Of a stretch of 64,000 nt of DNA, positions 47-63,983 are shown piece after piece. Made by a program: the position numbers and the translations under genes. Positions within the stretch are counted from its first letter, which is position 1; the number at the start of each line of letters is the position of its first letter. The notes under the pieces were generated by a model. It searched no databases and had not been told where the DNA came from. It was given only the letters and a program-made list of their open reading frames with translations. The DNA is from Gammaproteobacteria bacterium (lineage in GTDB: Bacteria; Pseudomonadota; Gammaproteobacteria; Steroidobacterales; GCA-2729495): NCBI GenBank assembly GCA_030583605.1, contig CP129466.1:558001-622000 (forward strand). The letters run 5' to 3'.

Positions 47-1039
47 GTGGATGCGTACCGTGCACCGCGGGGCCTTGCCGGCCCGCACCTGCAGTCCGTG
101 CTGGCCAGCCTGCCGCTGCGTGAGCGGTCAGTCCGGCGGGACGCCACCGGGCTGCTCGCGCGCAGCACCACGGAGATCGTGGATTGCGGCAACGGCGTGC
201 GCCTGCTCGGGGTGCACACCCCTCCGGCCGGTGCGCCGGGCCGCATGGCGGTACTGATCCACGGCTGGGAGGGCAGCGCGGACTCGGTGTACATGGTGTC
301 GGCCGCCGCGCGCCTGTACCGCAGCGGCTATCGCGTGCTGCGCCTGAACCTGCGCGACCACGGCGGCTCGCACCAACTCAACGAGGGCCTGTTTCACTCC
401 TGCCTGCTCGCCGAGGTGCGCGATGCAGTCGGCGCTCTGCAGCGGCGCTATCCCGGTGAACGCCTGTGCCTCGGCGGGTTTTCCCTCGGCGGCAACTTCG
501 CGCTGCGCATCGCTGCCGAAGCCGGGACTGCCGGGTTGCGGATCGCGCGCGTGGCGGCCGTCTGCCCGGTGCTCGATCCGCGCGAAACGCTGCGCTCGCT
601 CGATGAAGGGCTGCCTCATTACCGGATGTATTTCACCCGTCGCTGGCGGCGGTCGCTGCAGCGCAAGCGCGAGGCGTTTCCGGCGCTGTACGATTTCGGA
701 TGGCTCGGCCGGTTCCGGACCCTGCGCGCCCTGACCGAGCACCTGGTCTGCAACTACGCCGGTTTTCCCGACCTCGACAGCTACCTGCGCGGCTACGCGG
801 TGACCGGCGAGCGCCTGGCCGGTCTCTCCGTGCCGACCGAGATCCTGCTGGCGGACGACGACCCCGTGATTCCGGTGCGCAGCGCCGCGGCACTGGCACG
901 ACCGCCCGCGCTCAGGGTCCGCCGGACCCGTCACGGCGGGCACTGCGCATTCATCGCCGATTACCGGCTGCGAAGCTGGCTGGATGACTACATTGCCGGC
1001 GTCTTCGAATCACCCCGGGCCGGCGATCACTCCACGTAG
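47..1039 (+). CDS. YheT-like alpha/beta-hydrolase
   Basis: Predicted cytoplasmic serine hydrolase of 330 aa. The N-terminal PHLQS motif (residues 13-17) is typical of YheT-type proteins (COG0429). The fold motifs are in order: IHGW (71-74) for the oxyanion region, nucleophile elbow GFSLGG (144-149), acidic residues in LLADDDPVIP (about 270), and the histidine in RHGGHCAF (about 298). The substrate cannot be predicted. The GTG start is the only good start before the PHLQS motif. The last 13 bases overlap the convergent DUF2845 gene. The family call rests on motif reading. Confidence 0.85.
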   Translation: MDAYRAPRGLAGPHLQSVLASLPLRERSVRRDATGLLARSTTEIVDCGNGVRLLGVHTPPAGAPGRMAVLIHGWEGSADSVYMVSAAARLYRSGYRVLRLNLRDHGGSHQLNEGLFHSCLLAEVRDAVGALQRRYPGERLCLGGFSLGGNFALRIAAEAGTAGLRIARVAAVCPVLDPRETLRSLDEGLPHYRMYFTRRWRRSLQRKREAFPALYDFGWLGRFRTLRALTEHLVCNYAGFPDLDSYLRGYAVTGERLAGLSVPTEILLADDDPVIPVRSAAALARPPALRVRRTRHGGHCAFIADYRLRSWLDDYIAGVFESPRAGDHST

Positions 1040-1422
1040 CCATAGCCGAGCCGGCGCACGTCCCGGACCAGGCCGTTCTCGAAGACCACCATGCGCATCA
1101 GCTTGCGCGGGCCGAAGTTGTAGGTCCATTCCTCTATCAATATCTCGACGACGGAGTGCTGGTGAATCAGCAGCTCCTCGCTGGTGAAGCGCATTTCGCT
1201 CCGGCCGTCGCTCACGACGAGCCCGCGGCTGGCCTGGGCGGAGGGGATGCCACTGCGGTAGAGCACGCGCCGCTGGACGGCGGTCGGCGTCCCGCAGAAG
1301 CGCAGGACCTTGGCCTGGGGATCGCCCTCGCTGACGAGACGACTCTGGCATCGCAGTGCCAGCGCCGGTTCGGCCAGCAGCAGGGCAGCGACGATGACTA
1401 TCAGGCGGTGTGACTGGCGCAT
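1027..1422 (-). CDS. DUF2845-type exported protein
   Basis: A 131-aa protein with a clear signal peptide (hydrophobic run IVIVAALLLAEPALA, cleavage probably after ALA near residue 22). The mature part has two cysteines (RCQS and RFCGTP) and a compact beta-rich pattern ending in RRLGYGYVE. This resembles DUF2845 proteins of gammaproteobacteria, which are small periplasmic proteins of unknown function. It converges on the upstream hydrolase and overlaps it by 13 bases. Confidence 0.7.
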   Translation of the reverse strand: MRQSHRLIVIVAALLLAEPALALRCQSRLVSEGDPQAKVLRFCGTPTAVQRRVLYRSGIPSAQASRGLVVSDGRSEMRFTSEELLIHQHSVVEILIEEWTYNFGPRKLMRMVVFENGLVRDVRRLGYGYVE

Positions 1423-1558
1423 GGCGACCCCCGGGGAGCGATCTGAGGCGCTCTTGCCGCTATTGACCGGGCTATGATCGCCGGGTTCCGGGCCGGCGTG
1501 GTGCGGCCGGAGCGCCGGCGCGTGTACGCTACCGGGACGCTGGAGAACGAGGGATCGT

Positions 1559-3121
1559 GTGAAGTCGCGCTTCGAAGCCAGGTTACGGGCGCTATCGGCC
1601 GCGGCGGAACCCGCGCTGCTGCAGGGTGGCCTGCGTGGGGTCGAAAAGGAGTGCCTGAGGGTAACCCCCGAGGGCTATATCGCGGCCAGCGATCATCCGG
1701 TGGCGCTCGGTGCGGCGCTGACCAACCGGTTCATCACGACGGATTACTCCGAGGCGCTGATCGAGTTCATCACGCCCCCGGAAACCACGGCCGCGGAAAC
1801 GCTGCAGTTTCTCGAGGACATTCACCAGTTCTCCTATCCGGCCATCGGCGACGAGTTGTTCTGGGCCATGTCCATGCCCTGCCGGGTGCGCTCGGAGGAG
1901 GACATCCACATCGCCCGCTACGGCAGCTCCAACGTCGGGATGATGAAAACCATCTACCGGCGTGGCTTGGGGTTCCGTTACGGCCGTTACATGCAGGCGA
2001 TCGCCGGCCTGCATTTCAATTACTCGGCCCCGGACGCCATCTGGCCGGCGCTCGGCGAGGTCGAGGACCAGCCATCGGACGGCACGGATGAGCGGTCCGA
2101 GGCGTACCTGGCGATGGTACGCAATGTGCGTCGCCTCGACTGGTTGCTGCTCTACCTGTTCGGCGCTTCGCCCGCGGTCTGCGGCTGCTTTCTGCGGGGC
2201 GGTGACGCAGGTCTCGAGAAGTTCGACCGCAACACCTATTTCGGCCGGTACGCCACCTCGCTGCGCATGAGCGATATCGGTTACAAGAATGCAAATCAGG
2301 CGGAGATCTTCGTCTCGGCCAACAGTCTCGATGAATACATCGCCGATCTGACCCGTGCGATCCGTACCCCCCATCCGGCCTACGAGCGGATCGGCGTACG
2401 CGTCGGTGGCGAGTATCGGCAGCTCAACACCCACCAGTTGCAGATCGAGAACGAGTACTACAGCAGCGTGCGGCCCAAGCGTTCGGCGCTGAGCGGCGAG
2501 CGGCCGACGGCTGCCTTGCGTCGCGGTGGGATCGAGTACATCGAGTTGCGCGCGCTCGACCTCGACCCGTTCGCCCCGACAGGCGTCGACGAGCTGCGGC
2601 TGCGGTTCGCCGAAGTTTTTCTGCTGTACTGCCTGCTCCTCGACAGCCCGCCGATCGGCGCCGCGGAGCGCGTCGAGATCGGTCACAACCACGGCGTCGT
2701 GGCGCGGCAGGGGCGCGAACCCGGACTCGAGCTGCGCCGGGCCGGGCGTGCCGTAGCGCTGCGCGCCTGGGCCGCGGAGGCGATCGAGGCGATGCACGGG
2801 GTGGCAGAGCTGCTGGATCTCGGTGCCGGGGCGCAATATCGCCGGGCCGTGCAGGAGTGCGCCTCGAGCGTCGCCGATCCGCAACGCACGCCGTCGGCGC
2901 GCTTGATGCAGGCGCTCGCCGAGTCGGGAGGGTCGCTCGGGGAATTTGGCCTGGCCCTGTCGCGGCGTCATCGGGAGCATTTCCTCTCCCGGCCCCGCTC
3001 GGCCAATCGCCACTACCGGACGCTGGAAGAGGAGGCGCTCGCCTCGCTGGACCGGCAATGCTGGATAGAGGAGCACGACACCCTCAGCCTGGAGGAATAC
3101 CTTGCCTGCTACTACGACTGA
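1559..3121 (+). CDS. gshA: Glutamate-cysteine ligase
   Basis: Catalyses ATP-dependent joining of L-glutamate and L-cysteine, the first and rate-limiting step of glutathione synthesis, in the cytoplasm. At 520 aa it matches the length of the proteobacterial type 1 enzyme (about 518 aa). Recognisable segments are GVEKECLR near the N terminus, TTDYSEALIEFITPP, the YRRGLGFRYGRYMQ region, and NHGVVARQGREP. The GTG start at 1559 has a GAGGGA ribosome-binding site a few bases upstream. It stands alone; the synthetase gene gshB is not in the window. Confidence 0.95.
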   Translation: MKSRFEARLRALSAAAEPALLQGGLRGVEKECLRVTPEGYIAASDHPVALGAALTNRFITTDYSEALIEFITPPETTAAETLQFLEDIHQFSYPAIGDELFWAMSMPCRVRSEEDIHIARYGSSNVGMMKTIYRRGLGFRYGRYMQAIAGLHFNYSAPDAIWPALGEVEDQPSDGTDERSEAYLAMVRNVRRLDWLLLYLFGASPAVCGCFLRGGDAGLEKFDRNTYFGRYATSLRMSDIGYKNANQAEIFVSANSLDEYIADLTRAIRTPHPAYERIGVRVGGEYRQLNTHQLQIENEYYSSVRPKRSALSGERPTAALRRGGIEYIELRALDLDPFAPTGVDELRLRFAEVFLLYCLLLDSPPIGAAERVEIGHNHGVVARQGREPGLELRRAGRAVALRAWAAEAIEAMHGVAELLDLGAGAQYRRAVQECASSVADPQRTPSARLMQALAESGGSLGEFGLALSRRHREHFLSRPRSANRHYRTLEEEALASLDRQCWIEEHDTLSLEEYLACYYD

Positions 3122-3211
3122 CGACGGCGCCTTTCAGGTGGTGCGGTTGTGGTGCGCGTGGCCCGTCATTTAGTATCCGTTGCAGGGTTGATCGCGTAAG
3201 GTTGTCAGGAA

Positions 3212-3886
3212 TTGGCGCGCCTGTTCTACGGGTCGGTGCTCGTGGGTGTCCTGCTGGCGGTGCTCGCGGCGGGTGTGTTCCCGCTGCCGCGGCACGAACG
3301 CTATCGTTCCGACATTACCGTCATCGCAGACGGTGGGCGCGCCGAGACCTTCCTGATCCAGTGGCCGCAGGACCGCGTGGTTCTCGGTGCCGCGCCGGGT
3401 CTGCGCCAGATCGGCGCGGCGATCGCCCTCGACGAGGGTGACCCGGCCGGGGCGAGCGTCGAGGTTTTTCGCCTGCGGGACTCGGCGGGGAATGTCGTCG
3501 GTCTGGCCAGTCGCAGCACTTCGCGGCGCGCTGCCGCCGGCGGGTCGTCGGTGCAGGGCACCGACTGGGTGCTCATGCTCCCGAGCCGCGGGGCATTGTT
3601 CCTCACCCAGGTGAACCAGCATGACGTTGCGCCGAGGCGGCGCGCGACCGACGGCGAGTTGCAGGTCGCGGTCGATGACGTCGCCGGCCTGTGGTCGCAG
3701 GGCAACCGGCTGCGGATCACGGGCGGCCCGGCTGGCGACGGTGCGGGGCGTGTGGCCGGTGGCACCGACGAGTTTTACGGCCTGAGTGGCAGCTACGACG
3801 AAACCTGGGACCTCGAGGAAGCGCGGGCCGGCGGCGTGACTCAAGGCCGCATCACGCTCGTCACCCGGCTGGAGGCGGGATCCTGA
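3212..3886 (+). CDS. Membrane-anchored hypothetical protein
   Basis: Unrecognised 224-aa protein. It opens with one hydrophobic segment (about residues 6-26), giving an N-in anchor or uncleaved signal. The rest is soluble, beta-strand-like and rich in charged residues, and ends DEFYGLSGSYDETWDLEE... The start is TTG at 3212 with AGGTTGTCAGGA upstream. Its stop TGA shares a base with the ATG of the next gene (TGATG), so the two are translationally coupled and probably work together. Confidence 0.7.
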   Translation: MARLFYGSVLVGVLLAVLAAGVFPLPRHERYRSDITVIADGGRAETFLIQWPQDRVVLGAAPGLRQIGAAIALDEGDPAGASVEVFRLRDSAGNVVGLASRSTSRRAAAGGSSVQGTDWVLMLPSRGALFLTQVNQHDVAPRRRATDGELQVAVDDVAGLWSQGNRLRITGGPAGDGAGRVAGGTDEFYGLSGSYDETWDLEEARAGGVTQGRITLVTRLEAGS

Positions 3887-4539
3887 TGCGGTTGGTGCTC
3901 GTAGTGGCGGGGTTGTGCGTTGGCGTGTTTCTCGGCATCGCATTGCTGCTCGTGAACCCGATGCTGCTCTTGCAGCCTGCACCGATCAGTCTTTCCGGGG
4001 CAGTGCATACGCTCGCATGGGAAGCGGGTGAGGGCTTCCGGGGCTTTGAGCTCACTCCACGCGGATTGCTCGGAGCGGGCGACCGCCGTCAGCCACCGCG
4101 ACAGTTCGCCGAGCCCGGCATCCGCTACGCGCGCGCGGAGGTGGTCCGGTTGGCCGCGGATGAAGAGCTGCCGCCTGCCCTTGGCGTGCGTCTTTCGGCG
4201 ATTTCCGACCACGACTCGCTGTTGCAGGCACGCCTGGGCGTGGTGACGCAATGGAACCTCGTGTGGCCGCAGCGTGGCACGGTGCTGCTCGCCGGGTCGG
4301 AGAATTTCTGGCGGCCTTTGCGCGACGGCCTGTGGTCGGCGGTGCGTGGGCGTGGTTTCAGACCGGGCGCTGTCCGTTACATCCTGCCGCCATTTCCGGC
4401 GCCGGGCGGCAATGCCTTCGGTGCCGGTACCGGTGAGTTCGCCGCTGCCCGCATGGCCTTCCGCGAAGAATTGTCGCCGCTCGAAGACCGGGCCGGCGCC
4501 TTCTCCGGGCAGCGTCGGCTGCAACTGGCGCTGGACTAG
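3886..4539 (+). CDS. Membrane-anchored hypothetical protein
   Basis: Unrecognised 217-aa protein coupled to the gene before it by a one-base stop/start overlap. One N-terminal transmembrane segment (about residues 4-26) is followed by a soluble region with no cysteines, consistent with a periplasmic domain. It ends 23 bases before the convergent reductase gene. Confidence 0.7.
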   Translation: MRLVLVVAGLCVGVFLGIALLLVNPMLLLQPAPISLSGAVHTLAWEAGEGFRGFELTPRGLLGAGDRRQPPRQFAEPGIRYARAEVVRLAADEELPPALGVRLSAISDHDSLLQARLGVVTQWNLVWPQRGTVLLAGSENFWRPLRDGLWSAVRGRGFRPGAVRYILPPFPAPGGNAFGAGTGEFAAARMAFREELSPLEDRAGAFSGQRRLQLALD

Positions 4540-4562
4540 CCGCGCCGGCGTCCGCCTCGCCG

Positions 4563-5795
4563 CTACTCCGGCAGCCGCGCGGAGTCGGCAAGATCCTTGA
4601 ATGGCACGCGGGTATCGGCGACCGCCTCGGGATCGAGACGGGCGCCCTGCGCGATCAGTTTCTTCGACAACATGAACTCGCGCGGGCTGTTGATCGCGTG
4701 CACGGCGATCAGGGTATCGCCGAAGAAATAGCAGGCAGCGAACGAGCGGCTGTCCGGATCGCCGCGCAGCACCATCGCCGTGTAGTTCTCGGCAAGCCCG
4801 GTCATCTGCAGCTTCAGGTCGTACTGGTCCGACCAGAACCAAGGGATCTGCGCGTAGGGTTCCGGTTTGCCGAGGATGGACAACGCCGCGGTTTTTCCCT
4901 GCTCCTGCGCGTTGTGCACGGACTCCAGGCGCAGCCGCCGCCCCAGCAGGCTGTTGGGGTGGTTGGTGCAATCGCCCGCGGCGTAGATGTCCGGGTCGCT
5001 GGTGCGGCAGAACTCATCCACGATGATCCCGGAACTGCACTTCAGGCCGGCCGCTTCCGCGAGTTCCGTGCCCGGCATGATGCCCACGCCGACGACGATC
5101 AGGTCAGCCGGCAGTTCCGTGCCGGCGGTGGTGCGTAGCAGTACACCGCGGGCGGCCTGGCGGATCTCGGTGACGCCGGATTCGAGCAGTACTTCGACAC
5201 CGGCCTGCTGATGCGCCTTGAGGTAGAAGCGCGAGATCGCGGGCGCCACGGCGCGGGCCATGACGCGGTCGGCGATCTCGATCACGGTAACCTTCAGCCC
5301 CGCTGTCACGGCGACTGCCGCCACCTCGAGCCCGATGTAACCTCCGCCGATCACCACCAGCCGGCGTCCGGCGATGAAGCCGGTCTGGATGCCGCGCACG
5401 TCGTCGATGTTGCGCAGGTAATGCACCTCGGGCAGGTCCTGGCCCGGCACCGGCGCGCGGCGTACATAGCCGCCAGTGGCGAGGATCAGCTTGTCATACG
5501 CGAGGTCCGCACCATCGGCACGAACGGTTTTCGCGGCCGGATCGATCCGCTCCACGCGCGTGCCGGTGCGAACCGTGACCTTGTGTTCGCCGTAATAGGT
5601 CGCCGGGCGCAGGTGAAGCCGTTCGAGTTCCAGTTCGCCGGCGAGGAATTTCTTCGACAACGGCGGGCGCTGGTACGGCAGGTATGGTTCTTCGCCGATC
5701 AGGATCACGTCGCCCGCGAACCCGCCATGGCGCAGCGTGACGATGGCCTGCGCGGCCGCCTGGCCAGCGCCAGCGATGACAACGGTTTCCGGCAT
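4563..5795 (-). CDS. FAD-dependent ferredoxin/rubredoxin-type reductase
   Basis: NAD(P)H-dependent flavoprotein of the family that feeds electrons to ferredoxins or rubredoxins. In order: FAD-binding VIAGAGQAAAQ at the N terminus, PYQRPPLSK (about 35), ATGGYVRR, NAD(P)-binding VVIGGGYIGLEVAA (about 145), the second FAD motif DIYAAGDCTNHPN (about 275), and a C-terminal reductase domain with HAINSPREFM. The ATG at 5795 gives 410 aa, normal for the family. An in-frame TTG at 5840 would add 15 poorly conserved residues. The electron-transfer partner is not encoded nearby. Confidence 0.88.
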   Translation of the reverse strand: MPETVVIAGAGQAAAQAIVTLRHGGFAGDVILIGEEPYLPYQRPPLSKKFLAGELELERLHLRPATYYGEHKVTVRTGTRVERIDPAAKTVRADGADLAYDKLILATGGYVRRAPVPGQDLPEVHYLRNIDDVRGIQTGFIAGRRLVVIGGGYIGLEVAAVAVTAGLKVTVIEIADRVMARAVAPAISRFYLKAHQQAGVEVLLESGVTEIRQAARGVLLRTTAGTELPADLIVVGVGIMPGTELAEAAGLKCSSGIIVDEFCRTSDPDIYAAGDCTNHPNSLLGRRLRLESVHNAQEQGKTAALSILGKPEPYAQIPWFWSDQYDLKLQMTGLAENYTAMVLRGDPDSRSFAACYFFGDTLIAVHAINSPREFMLSKKLIAQGARLDPEAVADTRVPFKDLADSARLPE

Positions 5796-56618: not shown

Positions 56619-56705
56619 GCCTAACGCCGAAGCTCACCGGCCGGTATTGACGCGCGACGCGCGCGCCACTTCGCTGAACCGGACCGGTGGAGCGATTTTT
56701 TAGAG
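56619..56705 (-). repeat. attC site 1 (distal end of array)
   Basis: 87 bp from GCCTAAC; the right box reads TTTAGAG instead of GTTAGAC, so it is degenerate. Shares the CCGGACCGGTGGAGCGATTT arm with attC 5. Last site of the array, next to yhhJ. Confidence 0.8.
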
Positions 56706-56993
56706 CCGCGAAAGCCAGTAATGTGGGCGACGGCGAAAGTGACCGACGGCAAGAATCTGAATGACTCCTCCGCGCTCACGGAAAATGATGTGGAACGGAA
56801 ACTCGGTGACCAACGCCCGCCGGATGTCCGGTGCGCGCTCGACGCGACACATGCTTGGGGTTTCGCAGACCCGATCAATCGCCGACTCGACCTGCGACAG
56901 GTAGCGATTGCCGAGGCCCGCTTCCTGCGCTTCGTAGTATGCGACCTGCTCAAGGTGCTCGGCCTCCGCCGCAGGGTGAAAGCCGAACTTCAC
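56700..56993 (-). CDS. ParE/RelE-family toxin (cassette 11)
   Basis: 97-aa toxin of the RelE/ParE fold: FHPAAEAEHLEQVAYYE at the N terminus, FPFHIIFRERGG and a GHFRRRPHYW end. The stop TAA is inside attC 1. It overlaps its antitoxin by four bases. Confidence 0.88.
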   Translation of the reverse strand: MKFGFHPAAEAEHLEQVAYYEAQEAGLGNRYLSQVESAIDRVCETPSMCRVERAPDIRRALVTEFPFHIIFRERGGVIQILAVGHFRRRPHYWLSRL

Positions 56994-57214
56994 CGCAGCA
57001 ACTGACGCGCCTTTCTCGCAACCTCGTCACCCGGCACCAGCGATACCTCGCCGGAGTCGAGCTGACGGGCTCGACGTTCCGCCTCATCGAGCCACAACTG
57101 CTCGCGCTCCGAAGGGCTCAACGTGTCCAGGCTAGACAGCAACTCGTGCGCCAGCTTCGCTCGCTCCTGGGCCGGCAGACCAAGTGCTTGTTTTTCCAGT
57201 GACTTAAAGTCCAT
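56990..57214 (-). CDS. Addiction-module antitoxin (cassette 11)
   Basis: 74-aa protein of the 'putative addiction module component' family: short helical N terminus (LEKQALGLPAQERAKLAHEL) and SEREQLWLDEAERRARQLDS. Precedes the ParE-like toxin, forming a two-gene cassette. Confidence 0.85.
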   Translation of the reverse strand: MDFKSLEKQALGLPAQERAKLAHELLSSLDTLSPSEREQLWLDEAERRARQLDSGEVSLVPGDEVARKARQLLR

Positions 57215-57246: not shown

Positions 57247-57327
57247 CTCTAACGTCTGCCTTCACCAGCGCGAAACCGGCAAGCGAAGCGCCGCTGGTTG
57301 ACCGTCCGGTGCAAGGCATGGTTGGGC
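57247..57327 (-). repeat. attC site 2
   Basis: 81 bp from CTCTAAC to GTTGGGC, with internal ACCAGCG...CGCTGGT complementary arms. Confidence 0.85.
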
Positions 57328-57417: not shown

Positions 57418-57819
57418 TTACGCTGTTGATGTCGCACCTCTCTGGCCACGACGCGGAGTCAGGGCCGCCAATACCGCGGCCACAATAATCAACCCTGCGA
57501 CGTCGCCCCACAGATGGCCAATGTGCTGTGTGTTGGCGACGGACTGAACCGCCATGACTCCCCCATGGACGATGCTCGACCAAACTGTGAACCAGATGAG
57601 GCTGCGGTGCGCCAATGGATCGCGTGACGCAAGCAGGAGGAACACGCCGAGGGTGGCATAGATGCCGAGGATCATTTCGAGATATTCGGAACGACCTTCT
57701 GCATGCCAGGACCAGCCGGATGGCCAGAGGATGGTGAGCGGCCAAAAGCCGACGATGCAGATAAGCCCTACGACCACCAAGACGATGCGAAGATACCTTA
57801 TGCGATCCGCCTCAGTCAT
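57418..57819 (-). CDS. Four-helix membrane protein, DUF6632-like (cassette 10)
   Basis: 133 aa with four membrane segments and conserved-looking WPSGWSWHAEGRSEYLEMIL and HGGVMAVQSV. AAAGGAGAAG ribosome-binding site before the ATG. The assignment to the DUF6632 type is from memory. It lies 90 bp inside attC 2, unusually far. Confidence 0.65.
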   Translation of the reverse strand: MTEADRIRYLRIVLVVVGLICIVGFWPLTILWPSGWSWHAEGRSEYLEMILGIYATLGVFLLLASRDPLAHRSLIWFTVWSSIVHGGVMAVQSVANTQHIGHLWGDVAGLIIVAAVLAALTPRRGQRGATSTA

Positions 57820-57920
57820 GACTTCTCCTTTACATTCGAGCGTGGACCTTCCAGATCCTTCCCTTGTGCATTTGCGAACAGAGAGTCCTGGGCATAATCG
57901 GGCGTCATCCTTGGGCCACG

Positions 57921-58217
57921 TCACGTCCGGGTGTTCTCCACGAGCGTAGCAATCTGCACGAACTCAACAGTGGGGCGCACACCATACAGGCCGGTCACTC
58001 GGTCGAGTAACTCATCAGTGAAGAACGCTTTGGCCGCGTCCTCGGAATCCCAGACGTAGAAGTTCGCGGCCTCGCGCTTTTCGGAGTTGAACGTGAAAGC
58101 CTTTGAGCGTAGCCCCTGCATCCCTTCAAACCGTGTGCGAGCGGTCTCGGCGATCTTCCGGACGGCTTGCTCGTCAAAATTGTCGCCGTAGCAAAACGTT
58201 ACGATTACACCGATCAT
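57921..58217 (-). CDS. YdhR-like small ferredoxin-fold protein (cassette 10)
   Basis: 98 aa. Pattern VIVTFCYGDNFDEQAVRKIA and KAFTFNSEKREAANFYVW resembles the YdhR/antibiotic-biosynthesis-monooxygenase dimeric alpha-beta barrel group. No attC separates it from the membrane-protein gene, so both form one cassette or an attC was lost. Confidence 0.65.
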   Translation of the reverse strand: MIGVIVTFCYGDNFDEQAVRKIAETARTRFEGMQGLRSKAFTFNSEKREAANFYVWDSEDAAKAFFTDELLDRVTGLYGVRPTVEFVQIATLVENTRT

Positions 58218-58268: not shown

Positions 58269-58346
58269 GTCCAACGTTTGAGTTCACTCGCGGCCGGAGG
58301 CTGGCGAAGCCAGCTGTAGGCTGTCGGGTGCAACGACGGGTTAGCC
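58269..58346 (-). repeat. attC site 3
   Basis: 78 bp from GTCCAAC to GTTAGCC with complementary GGCTGGCGAAGCCAGC at the centre. Confidence 0.87.
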
Positions 58347-59003
58347 ACCACTGTGCACTGCGGTGACGAATGCACGCAACTTGCTCGCGCTTAGGCCGCC
58401 GTTCTCACGGACACCTGAGCAGATGTCGAGTCCAAATGGGCGGACAGCAGAAATGGCCGATCGGACATTCTCTGGAGTGAGGCCACCAGCGAGGAACACT
58501 GGCTTGGCTACGGCCGACGTGATCTGCGCGGAGACGGACCAGTCGTGAACACGGCCGGTGCCTCCAAGTTCTTTGACTGCCGCCGAAGGATTGCCCGAAT
58601 CGAGAAGGAGTGCGTCAACCAACGAAGAGGCTGCGATGGCTTCGCCAACCGATGAAGGGCCGCAGACGTGGATGACTTGCACCAGCTTCACTCCCGGTAG
58701 GAAGCGACGTATCCGAAGCAACTCATCCGGAGCAACGTGATCGACCAACTGGATCGTGGTTGTGCGGCAGCGGGCGTGCTGTTCGGCTATTGCAGCGGCA
58801 TCAGTGAGGGAGGTCAGCAGAAAGGTCGCCACCGGAGGGGGAGTAGACGCGGCGATCTCGGCGATGAGGGACTCTGCGATGACGCCAGGACCGCTTGGCA
58901 TCGAAGACACGAGGCCAACTGCATCGGCGCCTGCCGCGACTGCGATGCGCGCCTCTTCGAGCGAACTGATGCAGCAGACCTTCAGGCGCGGAGATGCGTG
59001 CAT
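58341..59003 (-). CDS. TrpF-family phosphoribosylanthranilate isomerase-like protein (cassette 9)
   Basis: 220-aa (beta/alpha)8 barrel. Catalytic cysteine in LKVCCISSLEEARIAVAAG (usual KICG), the catalytic aspartate in DALLLDSGN, phosphate loops FLAGGLTPENV and LDICSGVRENGG. Family enzymes isomerise phosphoribosylanthranilate in tryptophan synthesis. The motifs are slightly altered and no other trp gene is near, so the true substrate is open. The stop lies inside attC 3. Confidence 0.85.
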   Translation of the reverse strand: MHASPRLKVCCISSLEEARIAVAAGADAVGLVSSMPSGPGVIAESLIAEIAASTPPPVATFLLTSLTDAAAIAEQHARCRTTTIQLVDHVAPDELLRIRRFLPGVKLVQVIHVCGPSSVGEAIAASSLVDALLLDSGNPSAAVKELGGTGRVHDWSVSAQITSAVAKPVFLAGGLTPENVRSAISAVRPFGLDICSGVRENGGLSASKLRAFVTAVHSGG

Positions 59004-59017
59004 GCCTTGCCTGTGGT

Positions 59018-59077
59018 GGCTAACGCTTGAACTAAGCCGGGCCGCGAAGCGGCTTCGGCTTGAATGAATTGTTAGGC
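59018..59077 (-). repeat. attC site 4 (aadA-like)
   Basis: 60 bp. Minus strand: GCCTAACAATTCATTCAAGC at the left, GTTCAAGCGTTAGCC at the right, with CCGCTTCGCGG at the centre. Nearly the layout of the aadA-type attC of class 1 integrons. Confidence 0.95.
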
Positions 59078-59572
59078 CTTGGCCGCGAACGCGTCATGGT
59101 ACGAGACAGTGCCAGTTGGCAGGGGGGGCGTGAAGGAAATGACTTGGAAGTACTCAGGGGGTATGCCAGGAAGAACCAATGACTGCTCGGCAATGAACCC
59201 AAAGCGTGAATAGTAGCCCGGATCTCCGAGTACGACACAACCGGCGGCGCCCAGCAAGCGCAACTCCGTCAGTGCGTGCTCCATAAGTTGCGTGCCAACG
59301 CCACCGCCTTGATGTTGTGGCGTAACGGAGATTGGACCAAGTCCGTACCAGCCTGTCGCGCCGTCGGAAATGGTTACGGGCGACACAGCCACATGCCCAA
59401 TCACTACGCCGTTGTCTTCTGCGACAAGGGAGACGGATAGCGCACCGGATGTGCGCAGATCTCGGACAATGAACTGCTCGGTATGGTCGGTGTGGGCCGC
59501 GTCCTTGAACGCGGCTACAGTTACCGTCTCAATGGCGGCGGCATCCGACGGGCCTTCCTTTCGGATTTTCAT
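59072..59572 (-). CDS. GNAT-family N-acetyltransferase (cassette 8)
   Basis: 166 aa. Acetyl-CoA motif ISVTPQHQGGGVGTQLMEHA (about 85), VLGDPGYYSRFGF and a YhbS-like end PTGTVSYHDAF. It may acetylate a small molecule or protein; the substrate is unknown. The stop lies inside attC 4. Confidence 0.9.
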   Translation of the reverse strand: MKIRKEGPSDAAAIETVTVAAFKDAAHTDHTEQFIVRDLRTSGALSVSLVAEDNGVVIGHVAVSPVTISDGATGWYGLGPISVTPQHQGGGVGTQLMEHALTELRLLGAAGCVVLGDPGYYSRFGFIAEQSLVLPGIPPEYFQVISFTPPLPTGTVSYHDAFAAKA

Positions 59573-59587
59573 GATGCTTGGTCCAAG

Positions 59588-59710
59588 GCCTAACGATTGA
59601 GCTCACTGGCCGCTGGAAACGCTTGACGCGCGCGGCCGGCGCACACTCTCACCCGCGACGGGCGCGCGCACCACAGCGCCGAGCCGGACCGGTGGAGCGA
59701 TTTGTTAGAC
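59588..59710 (-). repeat. attC site 5
   Basis: 123 bp from GCCTAAC to GTTAGAC. Shares GAGCTCACTGGCC and CCGGACCGGTGGAGCGATTT with attC 1, but has a longer central arm. Confidence 0.9.
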
Positions 59711-59713
59711 AAC

Positions 59714-59977
59714 CTAGCGATAGACCTCACGGCGATGGCCTATTCGGAAAATGGTGATCTCTCGCCGCTTATCATCGATCAGATAAACGACCCGAAAACT
59801 ACCCTGGCGCACCCGGTAGCGATCATCGTATCCGGCAAGTTTCTCGGACCCAAGTGGCCGTGGCTCTTCGACCAGCGAATGAATGCGCTGCACGATGCGC
59901 GCGCGATCGCTTTTGCTACCGACCGCCTCCAACTCCTTTCCCGCGGAGGGTTTTATGAGGAGCTTATAGCCGGCCAC
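59714..59977 (-). CDS. RelE-family toxin (cassette 7)
   Basis: 87 aa. YKLLIKPSAGKELEAV start, RYRVRQGSFRVVYLIDD and IGHRREVYR end, the standard RelE mRNA-interferase layout. Overlaps its antitoxin by 14 bases. Confidence 0.92.
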   Translation of the reverse strand: MAGYKLLIKPSAGKELEAVGSKSDRARIVQRIHSLVEEPRPLGSEKLAGYDDRYRVRQGSFRVVYLIDDKRREITIFRIGHRREVYR

Positions 59978-60194
59978 GGCGCTTCATGCCTCGCACGAAG
60001 CTCTCAAAGGACACGCTCTTTTCCGACTTCCGACGATCTATGGACTCGAGATCCTCCGCGTCCTCAGCCAGCGCTGCTTTAACTGCGTCATTGACCATAT
60101 CGGAAATCGACCGATCGTTTGCCGCAGCACGCAATCTCAAGGCCTTATGGACCTCGGGTTCCAAGTAGACAGTCGCCCGTTTTGGTGTGCTCAT
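59964..60194 (-). CDS. Ribbon-helix-helix antitoxin (cassette 7)
   Basis: 76 aa. N-terminal KRATVYLEPEVHKALRLRAA is a CopG/RHH fold; the tail ESFVRGMKRRGRL would clasp the RelE toxin. A palindromic operator lies just upstream. Confidence 0.9.
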   Translation of the reverse strand: MSTPKRATVYLEPEVHKALRLRAAANDRSISDMVNDAVKAALAEDAEDLESIDRRKSEKSVSFESFVRGMKRRGRL

Positions 60195-60248: not shown

Positions 60249-60326
60249 GGCTAACGTCCAAGGTAACCGGCCGCCGAGGCGGGCGAAGCCGCGCCGAGTG
60301 CGGTCCGGTTGACCGCCGGGTTAGGC
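60249..60326 (-). repeat. attC site 6
   Basis: 78 bp from GGCTAAC to GTTAGGC, with GCGGTCCGGTTGACCGC and CGGGCGAAGCCGCG inner repeats. Confidence 0.88.
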
Positions 60327-60582: not shown

Positions 60583-60646
60583 GCTTAACGTTTGAGCTCA
60601 GGCCGCGGCCCGTCAGGGCCGCCGCGCCGGCAGCGAATTGTTGGGC
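60583..60646 (-). repeat. attC site 7
   Basis: 64 bp from GCTTAAC to GTTGGGC with GGCCGCGGCCCGTCAGGGCC at the centre. Confidence 0.9.
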
Positions 60647-62336: not shown

Positions 62337-62462
62337 ACCTAACGCTTGAGTTGAGCGCCCGCGCACGACGCCCGATAGCGCACCGAGAGTGCAAGATTTA
62401 GGAACGCACGCTCGGTGCGCTGCACATCGCCCGATGCGGAGCGCTCGAACGACTTGTTAGGT
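62337..62462 (-). repeat. attC site 10
   Basis: 126 bp from ACCTAAC to GTTAGGT. Arms GTTGAGCGCCCG and GCGCTCGAACG as in attC 9, but an unrelated centre. Confidence 0.9.
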
Positions 62463-62939: not shown

Positions 62940-63000
62940 ACCTAACGTTCAGCATGCAGCGGCGGCGCGCAGCGCCGTCCGCTGCATGCTGTTGTTAGAC
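62940..63000 (-). repeat. attC site 11
   Basis: 61 bp from ACCTAAC to GTTAGAC. Very clean stem CAGCATGCAGCGG...CCGCTGCATGCTG. Confidence 0.95.
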
Positions 63001-63906
63001 CGCTCCTTCTGCTTTCCTAACAAGTTGATCCGCCAGTTTCGTAATATCGCGGCGCAGCGCCAAGCGCTCCACCCAACGCGGAGGAATCCCTCTCTCACCG
63101 TAGTACGCGCCGGCAACCTGACCGCACACTGCCGCCGTGGTGTCCGCGTCGTCGCCGAGGTTCGCAGCCATGAGCACTGCGTCTTCGAAGCTGTCCGTAC
63201 GCGCGAAAGTCCACAACGCCGCCTCTAGACTCTCGACCACGTAGCCCGATCCTCGGATCGTCTCCTCCGACTTTCCCCGATAAGACGCGCGCGAAATCGC
63301 CGAGATGCGCTCACCAGAGAAGACCGACTCGCCGTCTCCGAGTAGGACATCCTCCTTGGGCTGGCCCAAGAGGGCACGGCAAATGACCTTGGCGAAGAGC
63401 CGGCACGCATCAACGCACTCTTCGGCGCCATGCGTCGTGCGTGAGCTCTGGGCTGCGAAACGTTCGACCGCGTCAAGATCTGGATAGAAGCGCATTGCGA
63501 CCGGGGAGAGCCTCATGATGCACCCATTGCCGGCCGTGTGTGGATCGGTGGATCCGGCGTACGGGTTACCGTCGCGCTGATACCTCTGGAGCGCCGACAC
63601 GACGGTGTTGCCGATGTCGAAGCAACTCCCAGTGCTGCTAAGGTAGCCCGTGTCCGCCCAGCGGCAGTAACGATCCATCTGATCCCGGGCGTCGAACCCA
63701 TCTCGCACGACGAGACTGGTGGCCAGACAAAGCGCCATCGAGGTGTCGTCAGTCCACTGACCGGGCTCGAGGCTGAACGGGCCTCCGCCGACCATGTCCT
63801 TCAGAGGCTCGAACGTTCCTCGACGACGAAACTCTACCGTCGTCCCGACGGCGTCACCCACGGCGAGTCCGAGCAGGCATCCGCGAAACCTCTCAGTCGT
63901 GTTCAT
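62995..63906 (-). CDS. ADP-ribosylglycohydrolase-family protein (cassette 1)
   Basis: 303-aa DraG/ARH-type hydrolase expected to remove ADP-ribose. Metal-binding motifs: GLAVGDAVGTTVEF, QWTDDTSMALCLATSL, GNGCIMRLSPVAM and ANLGDDADTTAAVCGQ. Substrate protein or nucleic acid unknown. Most integrase-proximal complete cassette in the window; stop TAA lies inside attC 11. Confidence 0.93.
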   Translation of the reverse strand: MNTTERFRGCLLGLAVGDAVGTTVEFRRRGTFEPLKDMVGGGPFSLEPGQWTDDTSMALCLATSLVVRDGFDARDQMDRYCRWADTGYLSSTGSCFDIGNTVVSALQRYQRDGNPYAGSTDPHTAGNGCIMRLSPVAMRFYPDLDAVERFAAQSSRTTHGAEECVDACRLFAKVICRALLGQPKEDVLLGDGESVFSGERISAISRASYRGKSEETIRGSGYVVESLEAALWTFARTDSFEDAVLMAANLGDDADTTAAVCGQVAGAYYGERGIPPRWVERLALRRDITKLADQLVRKAEGAV

Positions 63907-63919
63907 CCCGTACTCGGCC

Positions 63920-63983
63920 GTCTAACGTCCGCGCTAACCGGCCGCCCGCCCTCGGGCGGTCCGCGTTGAGCGCGTGGTTAGAC
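63920..63983 (-). repeat. attC site 12
   Basis: 64 bp from GTCTAAC to GTTAGAC with CGGCCGCCCGCCCTCGGGCG at the centre. The next cassette begins at about 63984 and runs off the window. Confidence 0.92.

Follow-up and report, generated by a model that had tools for sequence, protein, structure and literature searches.

The gene at 58341–59003 of the stretch of DNA analysed here (64,000 nucleotides of a gammaproteobacterial contig, CP129466.1, hereafter the window) raises the question of why a relative of the tryptophan-synthesis enzyme phosphoribosylanthranilate isomerase (PRAI, TrpF) is carried in an integron cassette, and what it does there. The first-pass annotation proposed a relaxed or repurposed isomerase, or a resistance determinant against an anthranilate-like compound. 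We refer to the protein and its subfamily as F2.

A TrpF-family gene between two attC sites

The features of the locus are listed in window coordinates; all lie on the minus strand.

58341..59003, minus: F2 isomerase gene (PRAI/TrpF family), ATG start, 220 aa, from the open reading frame list and its translation
58974-58976, minus: F2 codon Cys10
58884-58886, minus: F2 codon Gly40
58599-58601, minus: F2 codon Asp135
58407-58409, minus: F2 codon Arg199
58275..59023, minus: complete F2 gene cassette, 749 bp, with an inferred G^TT cut in both R' sites
58269..58346, minus: attC of the F2 cassette, GGCTAAC...GTTGGAC, 78 bp, overlapping the F2 stop codon (attC scan)
59018..59077, minus: attC of the upstream GNAT cassette, forming the 5' boundary of the F2 cassette (attC scan)
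59072..59572, minus: GNAT acetyltransferase, neighbouring cassette gene (annotation)
57253..57327, minus: further attC-like site, GCCCAAC...GTTAGA, likely the downstream cassette boundary (found with the looser motif only, absent from the main scan)
57418..58217, minus: likely next downstream cassette (DUF6632 reading frame 57418-57924 and reading frame 57921-58217)
59588..59710, minus: attC-like site of the array (attC scan)
60249..60314, minus: attC-like site of the array (attC scan)
60583..60646, minus: attC-like site of the array (attC scan)
62337..62462, minus: attC-like site of the array (attC scan)
62940..63000, minus: attC-like site of the array (attC scan)
63920..63983, minus: attC-like site of the array (attC scan)

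Family membership is well defined. The F2 protein matches Pfam PRAI (PF00697) at 71.9 bits against a cut-off of 22.7, with residues 8–214 covering profile positions 2–192 of 193, and this full-length match above the gathering score places it in the PRAI/TrpF superfamily. All nine matches up to an E-value of 1 in a sequence search of the PDB are PRAI chains (best 1lbm, 2e-17), and structure prediction gives, with high confidence (pLDDT 94), a TrpF (beta-alpha)8 barrel that superposes on 1nsj (VIA Z 26.9, rmsd 2.0, 204 aligned) and 1lbm (Z 25.7); the top 11 structural matches are TrpF and TrpC-TrpF entries, the first other family following at Z 20.4 and below. Assignment as a TrpF equivalog is another matter, since the best NCBIfam PRAI model gives 118.3 bits where its cut-off is 215, and the protein falls below the cut-offs, all at least 172, of each of the 12 NCBIfam PRAI models listed. 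The host has a PRAI/TrpF gene of its own, immediately after a TrpC match, at G000:392753 (G000 being the host contig).

The gene is bounded by two attC sites of the same orientation, found by searching for pairs of the RYYYAAC...GTTRRRY type whose cores can fold; the cassette ends in the list follow from the G^TT cut position at the two R' sites, which we take from the known attC rule. There are 12 attC-like places in G000:616269-627351 against two matches across the first 50 kb of the window, and 7.8 kb past the window end, at G000:629795-630931 on the plus strand, is an integron integrase (TIGR02249, 474.8 bits against a cut-off of 265), so that the minus-strand cassettes and the integrase beside them are divergent. 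The description of this gene as a TrpF-family member in an integron cassette is thus borne out by both the Pfam match and the attC sites on either side. The attC at the 5' boundary is approximately 92% identical to those of the aac(6')-IIa and fosE cassettes in a plasmid search; the query as a whole matched 3653 plasmid records and, among the 10 listed, nine match in this attC only.

At an E-value of 1e-40, F2 was not found in the other 39 of 40 host-family genomes searched (28 of the 40 at least 90% complete). These include a conspecific draft (94% complete) that lacks F2 and has an integrase of equal score, which agrees with cassette mobility and indicates that cassette content varies; we infer that the gene reached its host recently.

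No functional neighbour of F2 is evident in the window's own array. An ADP-ribosylglycohydrolase (PF03747, 274 bits; 62995-63906, minus strand) lies between attC-like sites of the same array and was dropped as a partner because it forms a separate cassette. The array also carries ParE-type toxin genes on the minus strand, at 56700-57214, beside an addiction-module antitoxin match, and at 59714-60194. Between array and integrase, a pair of IS3-type transposase-like reading frames was recognised by eye (L075 5555-6717, equal to G000:627555-628717, minus strand).

An old subfamily with a rebuilt active site

A pattern-based scan of the genomes of 84,980 species returned 66 F2 loci, 45–70% identical to the window protein over the best segment, in Bacteroidota, Acidobacteriota, Pseudomonadota, Verrucomicrobiota, Cyanobacteriota and other phyla. 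Profile searches, counting the genomes on which they were centred, found matches in 3/398 genomes of the host's phylum, 20/297 of the phylum of G012, 5/150 of the Piscinibacter family and 15/385 of the class of G048, three of the last (L125-L127) being non-F2 by their residues. This spread is patchy, as expected of a gene that moves or is lost often.

In a tree of 105 rows, F2 is separated from 31 housekeeping TrpFs by a 100/100 branch. The window protein lies near those of Piscinibacter and Holophagaceae, the nearest fork being weak (87/10). Close grouping with the host's trpF was the outcome named in the first-pass annotation as refuting its reading; the tree places the host gene across the 100/100 split, and recent capture of that gene is rejected. 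The suggestion of a cassette-only clade fails for a different reason, namely that the clade lies mostly outside cassettes. A folding scan of the 66 loci (mostly 5 kb on each side, some shorter) gave one attC-like place each in L011, L015 and L021 and none in the other loci; at least two attC motif pairs were seen only in L011 and L015. Those of L015 lie downstream of F2 within one 3-kb reading frame and were not taken as attC. In L011, a Holophagaceae draft with an integrase elsewhere in the genome, the F2 gene directly follows a row of similar palindromic spacers; no attC was identified after it there. The spacers lie between small reading frames over 823-4985 of that locus, probably an integron array with the F2 gene at its end.

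Plasmid and viral collections also yield relatives. Among 40 plasmid records matched by the F2 protein, only those of Acaryochloris, Sphingomonas and Sphingobium are F2-like (56–57%), the others being at most 50% identical or partial, and three plasmid records name their F2-like genes 'phosphoribosylanthranilate isomerase'. A relative of 57% identity occurs on a contig from a viral collection (L227 4114-4755). Long open frames upstream of F2 in six loci (L135, L203, L111, L208, L136 and L066) hold no Pfam domain other than PRAI and are therefore read as chance, not as domain fusions, and one cluster of neighbours (cluster 8) was dropped as antisense reading frames on the strand opposite F2.

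The residue comparison rests on 74 F2 rows aligned with 31 housekeeping TrpF rows, the latter comprising the host's TrpF and the 30 best-scoring PRAI matches from F2 genomes. Rows came from 61 of the 66 loci (L041, L067, L070, L071 and L073 being broken or partial) and from 12 of 17 later ones; L118 and L122 are absent from the alignment though they bear the CC motif, L114 duplicates L032, L123 duplicates L065, and L125-L127 were left out for want of the CC motif, so that Cys at position 11 of the 12 added rows reflects this choice. Residues K8, C10, G30, Q85, G148, G173, G174 and D193 are the same in every row of both sets, and Asp135 is present in 74/74 F2 and 30/31 TrpF rows. Three positions separate the two sets fully, F2 having Cys for Gly at 11, Gly for Arg at 40 and Arg for Glu at 199, and four others mostly differ (109, Gln against Lys/Arg; 112, His against mostly Arg; 153, His against Phe; 87, Val/Cys against His).

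By alignment with the PDB match, columns 40 and 199 correspond to R36 and E184 of Thermotoga maritima TrpF (TmTrpF), so that the Arg-Glu pair of all 31 TrpF rows is Gly and Arg in all 74 F2 rows. According to a simulation study (PMC9088769), R36 and E184 form a salt bridge in TmTrpF, R36 screens the carboxylate of anthranilate and is indispensable if TrpF activity is to be introduced, though in TrpF it makes little direct contact with the substrate, and D126 is the catalytic aspartate; D126 aligns with D135 of F2. F2 therefore keeps what appear to be the TrpF fold and catalytic pair, together with active-site swaps that are fixed throughout the subfamily. The KVCC and CSGVRENGG motifs of the first-pass annotation are indeed present, as are the putative catalytic residues Cys10 and Asp135, and with the swaps fixed in all F2 rows these motifs are signatures of the whole clade and are not specific to the cassette. 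Of the two descriptions 'relaxed' and 'repurposed', the second is the one favoured by the subfamily-wide swaps, the retained fold and catalytic pair and the distance from the host's trpF; relaxation following capture does not fit a change that is old, in a clade mostly outside cassettes.

More remote PRAI proteins help to delimit the subfamily. Twenty weaker matches were checked, of which one (L282) repeats the F2 of L028; none of the other 19, all non-F2, has the Gly40-Arg199 combination, and column 40 holds Arg in eight and another residue or no letter in the rest. Gln109, His112 and His153 do occur in some of the 19 and are not exclusive to F2, and some of these proteins represent further paralog groups. 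L125, L126 and L274 form another PRAI group in which a GLTH..ED loop replaces the R36 loop; at the E184 column L125 and L126, which share an LGGTG.THDW motif, have Glu and L274 has Gln. A third, very weak PRAI match (23–37 bits), with Ser in the catalytic Cys column, was seen in L287-L291, from Spirosoma-type genomes, a Cytophagales draft and a record titled Flavobacterium (G023, G015, G026, G027 and G009). Another relative (L127, or L140 8010-8621), with the motif KICQ, lacks the catalytic Asp and lies, in another genome, no more than approximately 7 kb from DeoC, DeoA and Add; it is possibly a related form that is decayed or regulatory.

Gene neighbourhoods and the tryptophan pathway

The neighbours of F2 outside the window vary, and recurrent among them are enzymes of nucleoside breakdown. 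The gene directly follows DeoA in the Piscinibacter locus, and the order is DeoC-DeoA-DeoB-PhyH-Add-F2 in Pelagibius (L020) and AldDH-DeoA-DeoB-F2, with DeoC further upstream (L142), in a Rhodospirillaceae draft (L032). An acidobacterium (L019) shows DeoC-AldDH-AldDH-F2-PfkB followed by nucleoside hydrolases, Limibaculum shows F2-PfkB-nucleoside hydrolase, and in Kiloniellaceae a nucleoside hydrolase is convergent to F2. The gene thus adjoins DeoA, DeoB, Add, or PfkB and then a nucleoside hydrolase, in arrangements that differ from locus to locus.

Matches to DeoA, DeoB, DeoC, Add or nucleoside hydrolase (E ≤ 1e-12) were counted in 101 distinct F2 loci and in control windows at least as long as these. 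The counts leave out L138-L140 (non-F2) and L141-L142 (duplicates) and score L069 as negative though only approximately 300 bases of its contig precede F2; among the 60 proteobacterial controls, two (L151 and L152) come from G526, which bears only an L127-type relative. Nucleoside genes accompany F2 in 13/101 loci, 12 of the 28 proteobacterial and 1 of the 73 others, and occur in none of the 36 controls and in two of 40 more. The proteobacterial comparison (12/28 against 2/60) gives a Fisher p of 9e-6 and that over all phyla (13/101 against 2/76) a p of 0.013. The gene families had been chosen with the first loci in view, which makes the later-fetched set the fair test; here the counts are 5/16 against 2/60 in Proteobacteria (p = 0.004) and 5/35 against 2/76 over all phyla (p = 0.03). 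All these p-values are generous, since related genomes are not independent. The link to nucleoside genes holds in Proteobacteria; with 1/73 outside them, and 0/19 in newly fetched Acidobacteriota loci, it may be lineage-specific. No neighbour is common to all F2 loci. The largest neighbour cluster comprises nine loci; by Pfam one of its members, a gene of Spirosoma arboris (L022) oriented divergently from F2, encodes an MFS transporter.

RpiA or RpiB was found in 47 of 51 F2 genomes, including all eight searched genomes with nucleoside context, and was lacking in the metagenome drafts G024, G028, G035 and G042. F2 is therefore not filling in for a missing Rpi, and the idea that it is the only ribose-5-phosphate isomerase of its hosts is unsupported.

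Might F2 be a genuine phosphoribosylanthranilate isomerase, a second TrpF that binds anthranilate through Arg199? Its Pfam family, its fold and the retained catalytic Cys and Asp are what this would predict, and in G020 an F2 gene and another PRAI gene lie on one contig approximately 13 kb apart. The scores below every listed NCBIfam PRAI cut-off and the Gly in the R36 column of 74/74 rows count against it, as does the genomic record. A further PRAI match accompanies F2 in 39/50 F2 genomes, and each of these 39 has one or more such matches with the TrpF-type Arg40, Glu199 or both (fragments in G028, G036 and G041). F2 is the sole PRAI match in the other 11, all of them metagenome drafts, and eight of these also lack a TrpC match, which was present in all controls (14/14 named genomes, the host and 5/5 genomes with more PRAI matches); gaps in the drafts could explain the missing TrpC or trpF in part, in either direction. 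Three F2-only genomes (G001, G025 and G050) do have TrpC, as a genuine TrpF would require, but they too are drafts and may have a trpF that the assembly lacks. Of the F2 neighbours scanned with Pfam, none was recognised as a trp gene. On this evidence a tryptophan role is improbable, and the best reading is that F2 is an old PRAI/TrpF subfamily that left tryptophan synthesis.

A candidate 5-phosphoribosyl isomerase and its place among known systems

We propose that F2 is a repurposed aldose-ketose isomerase that would act on a 5-phosphoribosyl compound of nucleoside or ribose salvage, a reading to which, taken whole and with catalysis, substrate and benefit deduced from the residues and gene contexts above, we give a probability of about 0.48. 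Presumably as in TmTrpF, where we take Cys7 (Cys10 in F2) to be the base, the barrel phosphate loops would grip the ribose 5-phosphate moiety and Asp135 would act as acid and Cys10 as base, a proton shift from C2 to C1 turning the aldose into a ketose. The pocket would have been rebuilt on its anthranilate side, the substrate would come from nucleoside or ribose salvage, and the integron would carry F2 as a stand-alone metabolic cassette. DeoA with DeoB, and nucleoside hydrolase with a PfkB kinase, both yield ribose-5-phosphate. The leading guess for the reaction would thus be ribose-5-phosphate to ribulose-5-phosphate, because aldose-ketose isomerisation comes next after both adjoining gene sets and because the TrpF barrel performs this chemistry on an amine-bearing ribose 5-phosphate. 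That ribose-5-phosphate itself is the substrate nevertheless seems unlikely to us, the guess being weakened by the RpiA or RpiB of 47/51 genomes.

The gain of Arg199 suggests that the pocket may still bind an anionic or polar group on this side. Were it an anionic aglycone, the substrate would be N-substituted and not plain ribose-5-phosphate, and F2 would isomerise or clear a different phosphoribosyl compound of Amadori type, for example in metabolite repair of sugar-phosphate adducts from nucleoside turnover. We consider this rather unlikely, yet it accords with N-glycosides being the native substrates of TrpF, with the Arg gained at the E184 column and lost at R36, with RpiA or RpiB being already there, and with the lack of a common neighbour in most Bacteroidota and Acidobacteriota loci, as suits a stand-alone repair enzyme; on the other hand, none of the genes recognised beside F2 would make or consume such a compound, and free ribose phosphates better explain the nucleoside gene sets. 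A resistance role, in which F2 would modify or isomerise an antimetabolite resembling anthranilate or a nucleoside, is very improbable. The integron location, an attC type shared with antibiotic-resistance cassettes and the divergent MFS transporter gene of S. arboris, in the nine-locus cluster, could be cited for it; the attC type is uninformative on cargo, the subfamily is conserved across phyla mostly outside cassettes, and no resistance gene was recognised by Pfam scan among the neighbours of relatives; the gene contexts scanned lend no support to the first-pass suggestion of resistance to an anthranilate-like compound. Hardly credible, finally, is a PRAI fold that has lost catalysis and serves in binding or regulation, as might be suspected from the more distant L127 relative without its active-site Asp and from the Ser that replaces Cys in weak PRAI paralogs, since Cys10 and Asp135 are invariant in 74/74 F2 rows.

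PRAI proteins, integron cassettes and specificity shifts among TrpF, HisA and PriA are each known. In the open-access literature, we found no report of a PRAI subfamily that is conserved, shows the Gly-Arg swap, lies beside nucleoside genes and has a member carried in a cassette, nor PRAI together with the names of nucleoside-catabolism enzymes. It is doubtful, though conceivable, that F2 represents a third, so far unrecognised, type of ribose-5-phosphate (or 5-phosphoribosyl) isomerase, derived from TrpF through the change of Arg36-Glu184 to Gly-Arg, serving nucleoside-derived ribose and partly spread by integrons. If true, the repurposed isomerase would be a clean natural case of a TrpF specificity switch by charge rearrangement, and of sugar metabolism carried on an integron. 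If the substrate of F2 does differ from that of TrpF, its genes are misnamed in many phyla, and models that predict tryptophan prototrophy from trpF alone are misled.

Of the known systems, TrpF (PF00697; TmTrpF, PDB 1NSJ/1LBM) is the closest, sharing with F2 the single-domain (beta-alpha)8 barrel, a near-equal length, the catalytic Cys and Asp, the late-loop Gly and Asp positions and a structural Z of approximately 26. F2 differs from it by R36 to Gly, E184 to Arg and Cys in place of the Gly after the catalytic Cys, by loss of the QLHG His and a Phe-to-His change two residues ahead of a conserved Trp, and by its place under all listed NCBIfam cut-offs with no trp gene recognised beside it. 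HisA and PriA belong to the same fold class (PriA and related entries at Z 18–19) but are far more distant, at 13–18% identity against 28% for TmTrpF; published work describes for them Amadori aldose-ketose chemistry on 5-phosphoribosyl amines (PMC5919458) and binding of a second, distal phosphate (PMC9088769). RpiA and RpiB resemble F2 in the proposed reaction only, being different Pfam families with no match in F2. NDM carbapenemase elements carry a mobile trpF gene. Compared by annotation only, that gene is like F2 a mobile gene annotated as phosphoribosylanthranilate isomerase, and most open-access papers that combine this enzyme name with integron and cassette have, as far as their titles tell, carbapenemases or carbapenem resistance as their subject. 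The cassettes with 60-bp attC sites (aac(6')-IIa, fosE and catB8) have attCs approximately 89–92% identical to the 5' boundary attC of F2, whereas the cargo of the F2 cassette is a metabolic-type enzyme and its integron lies in the host's single contig of 3.37 Mb.
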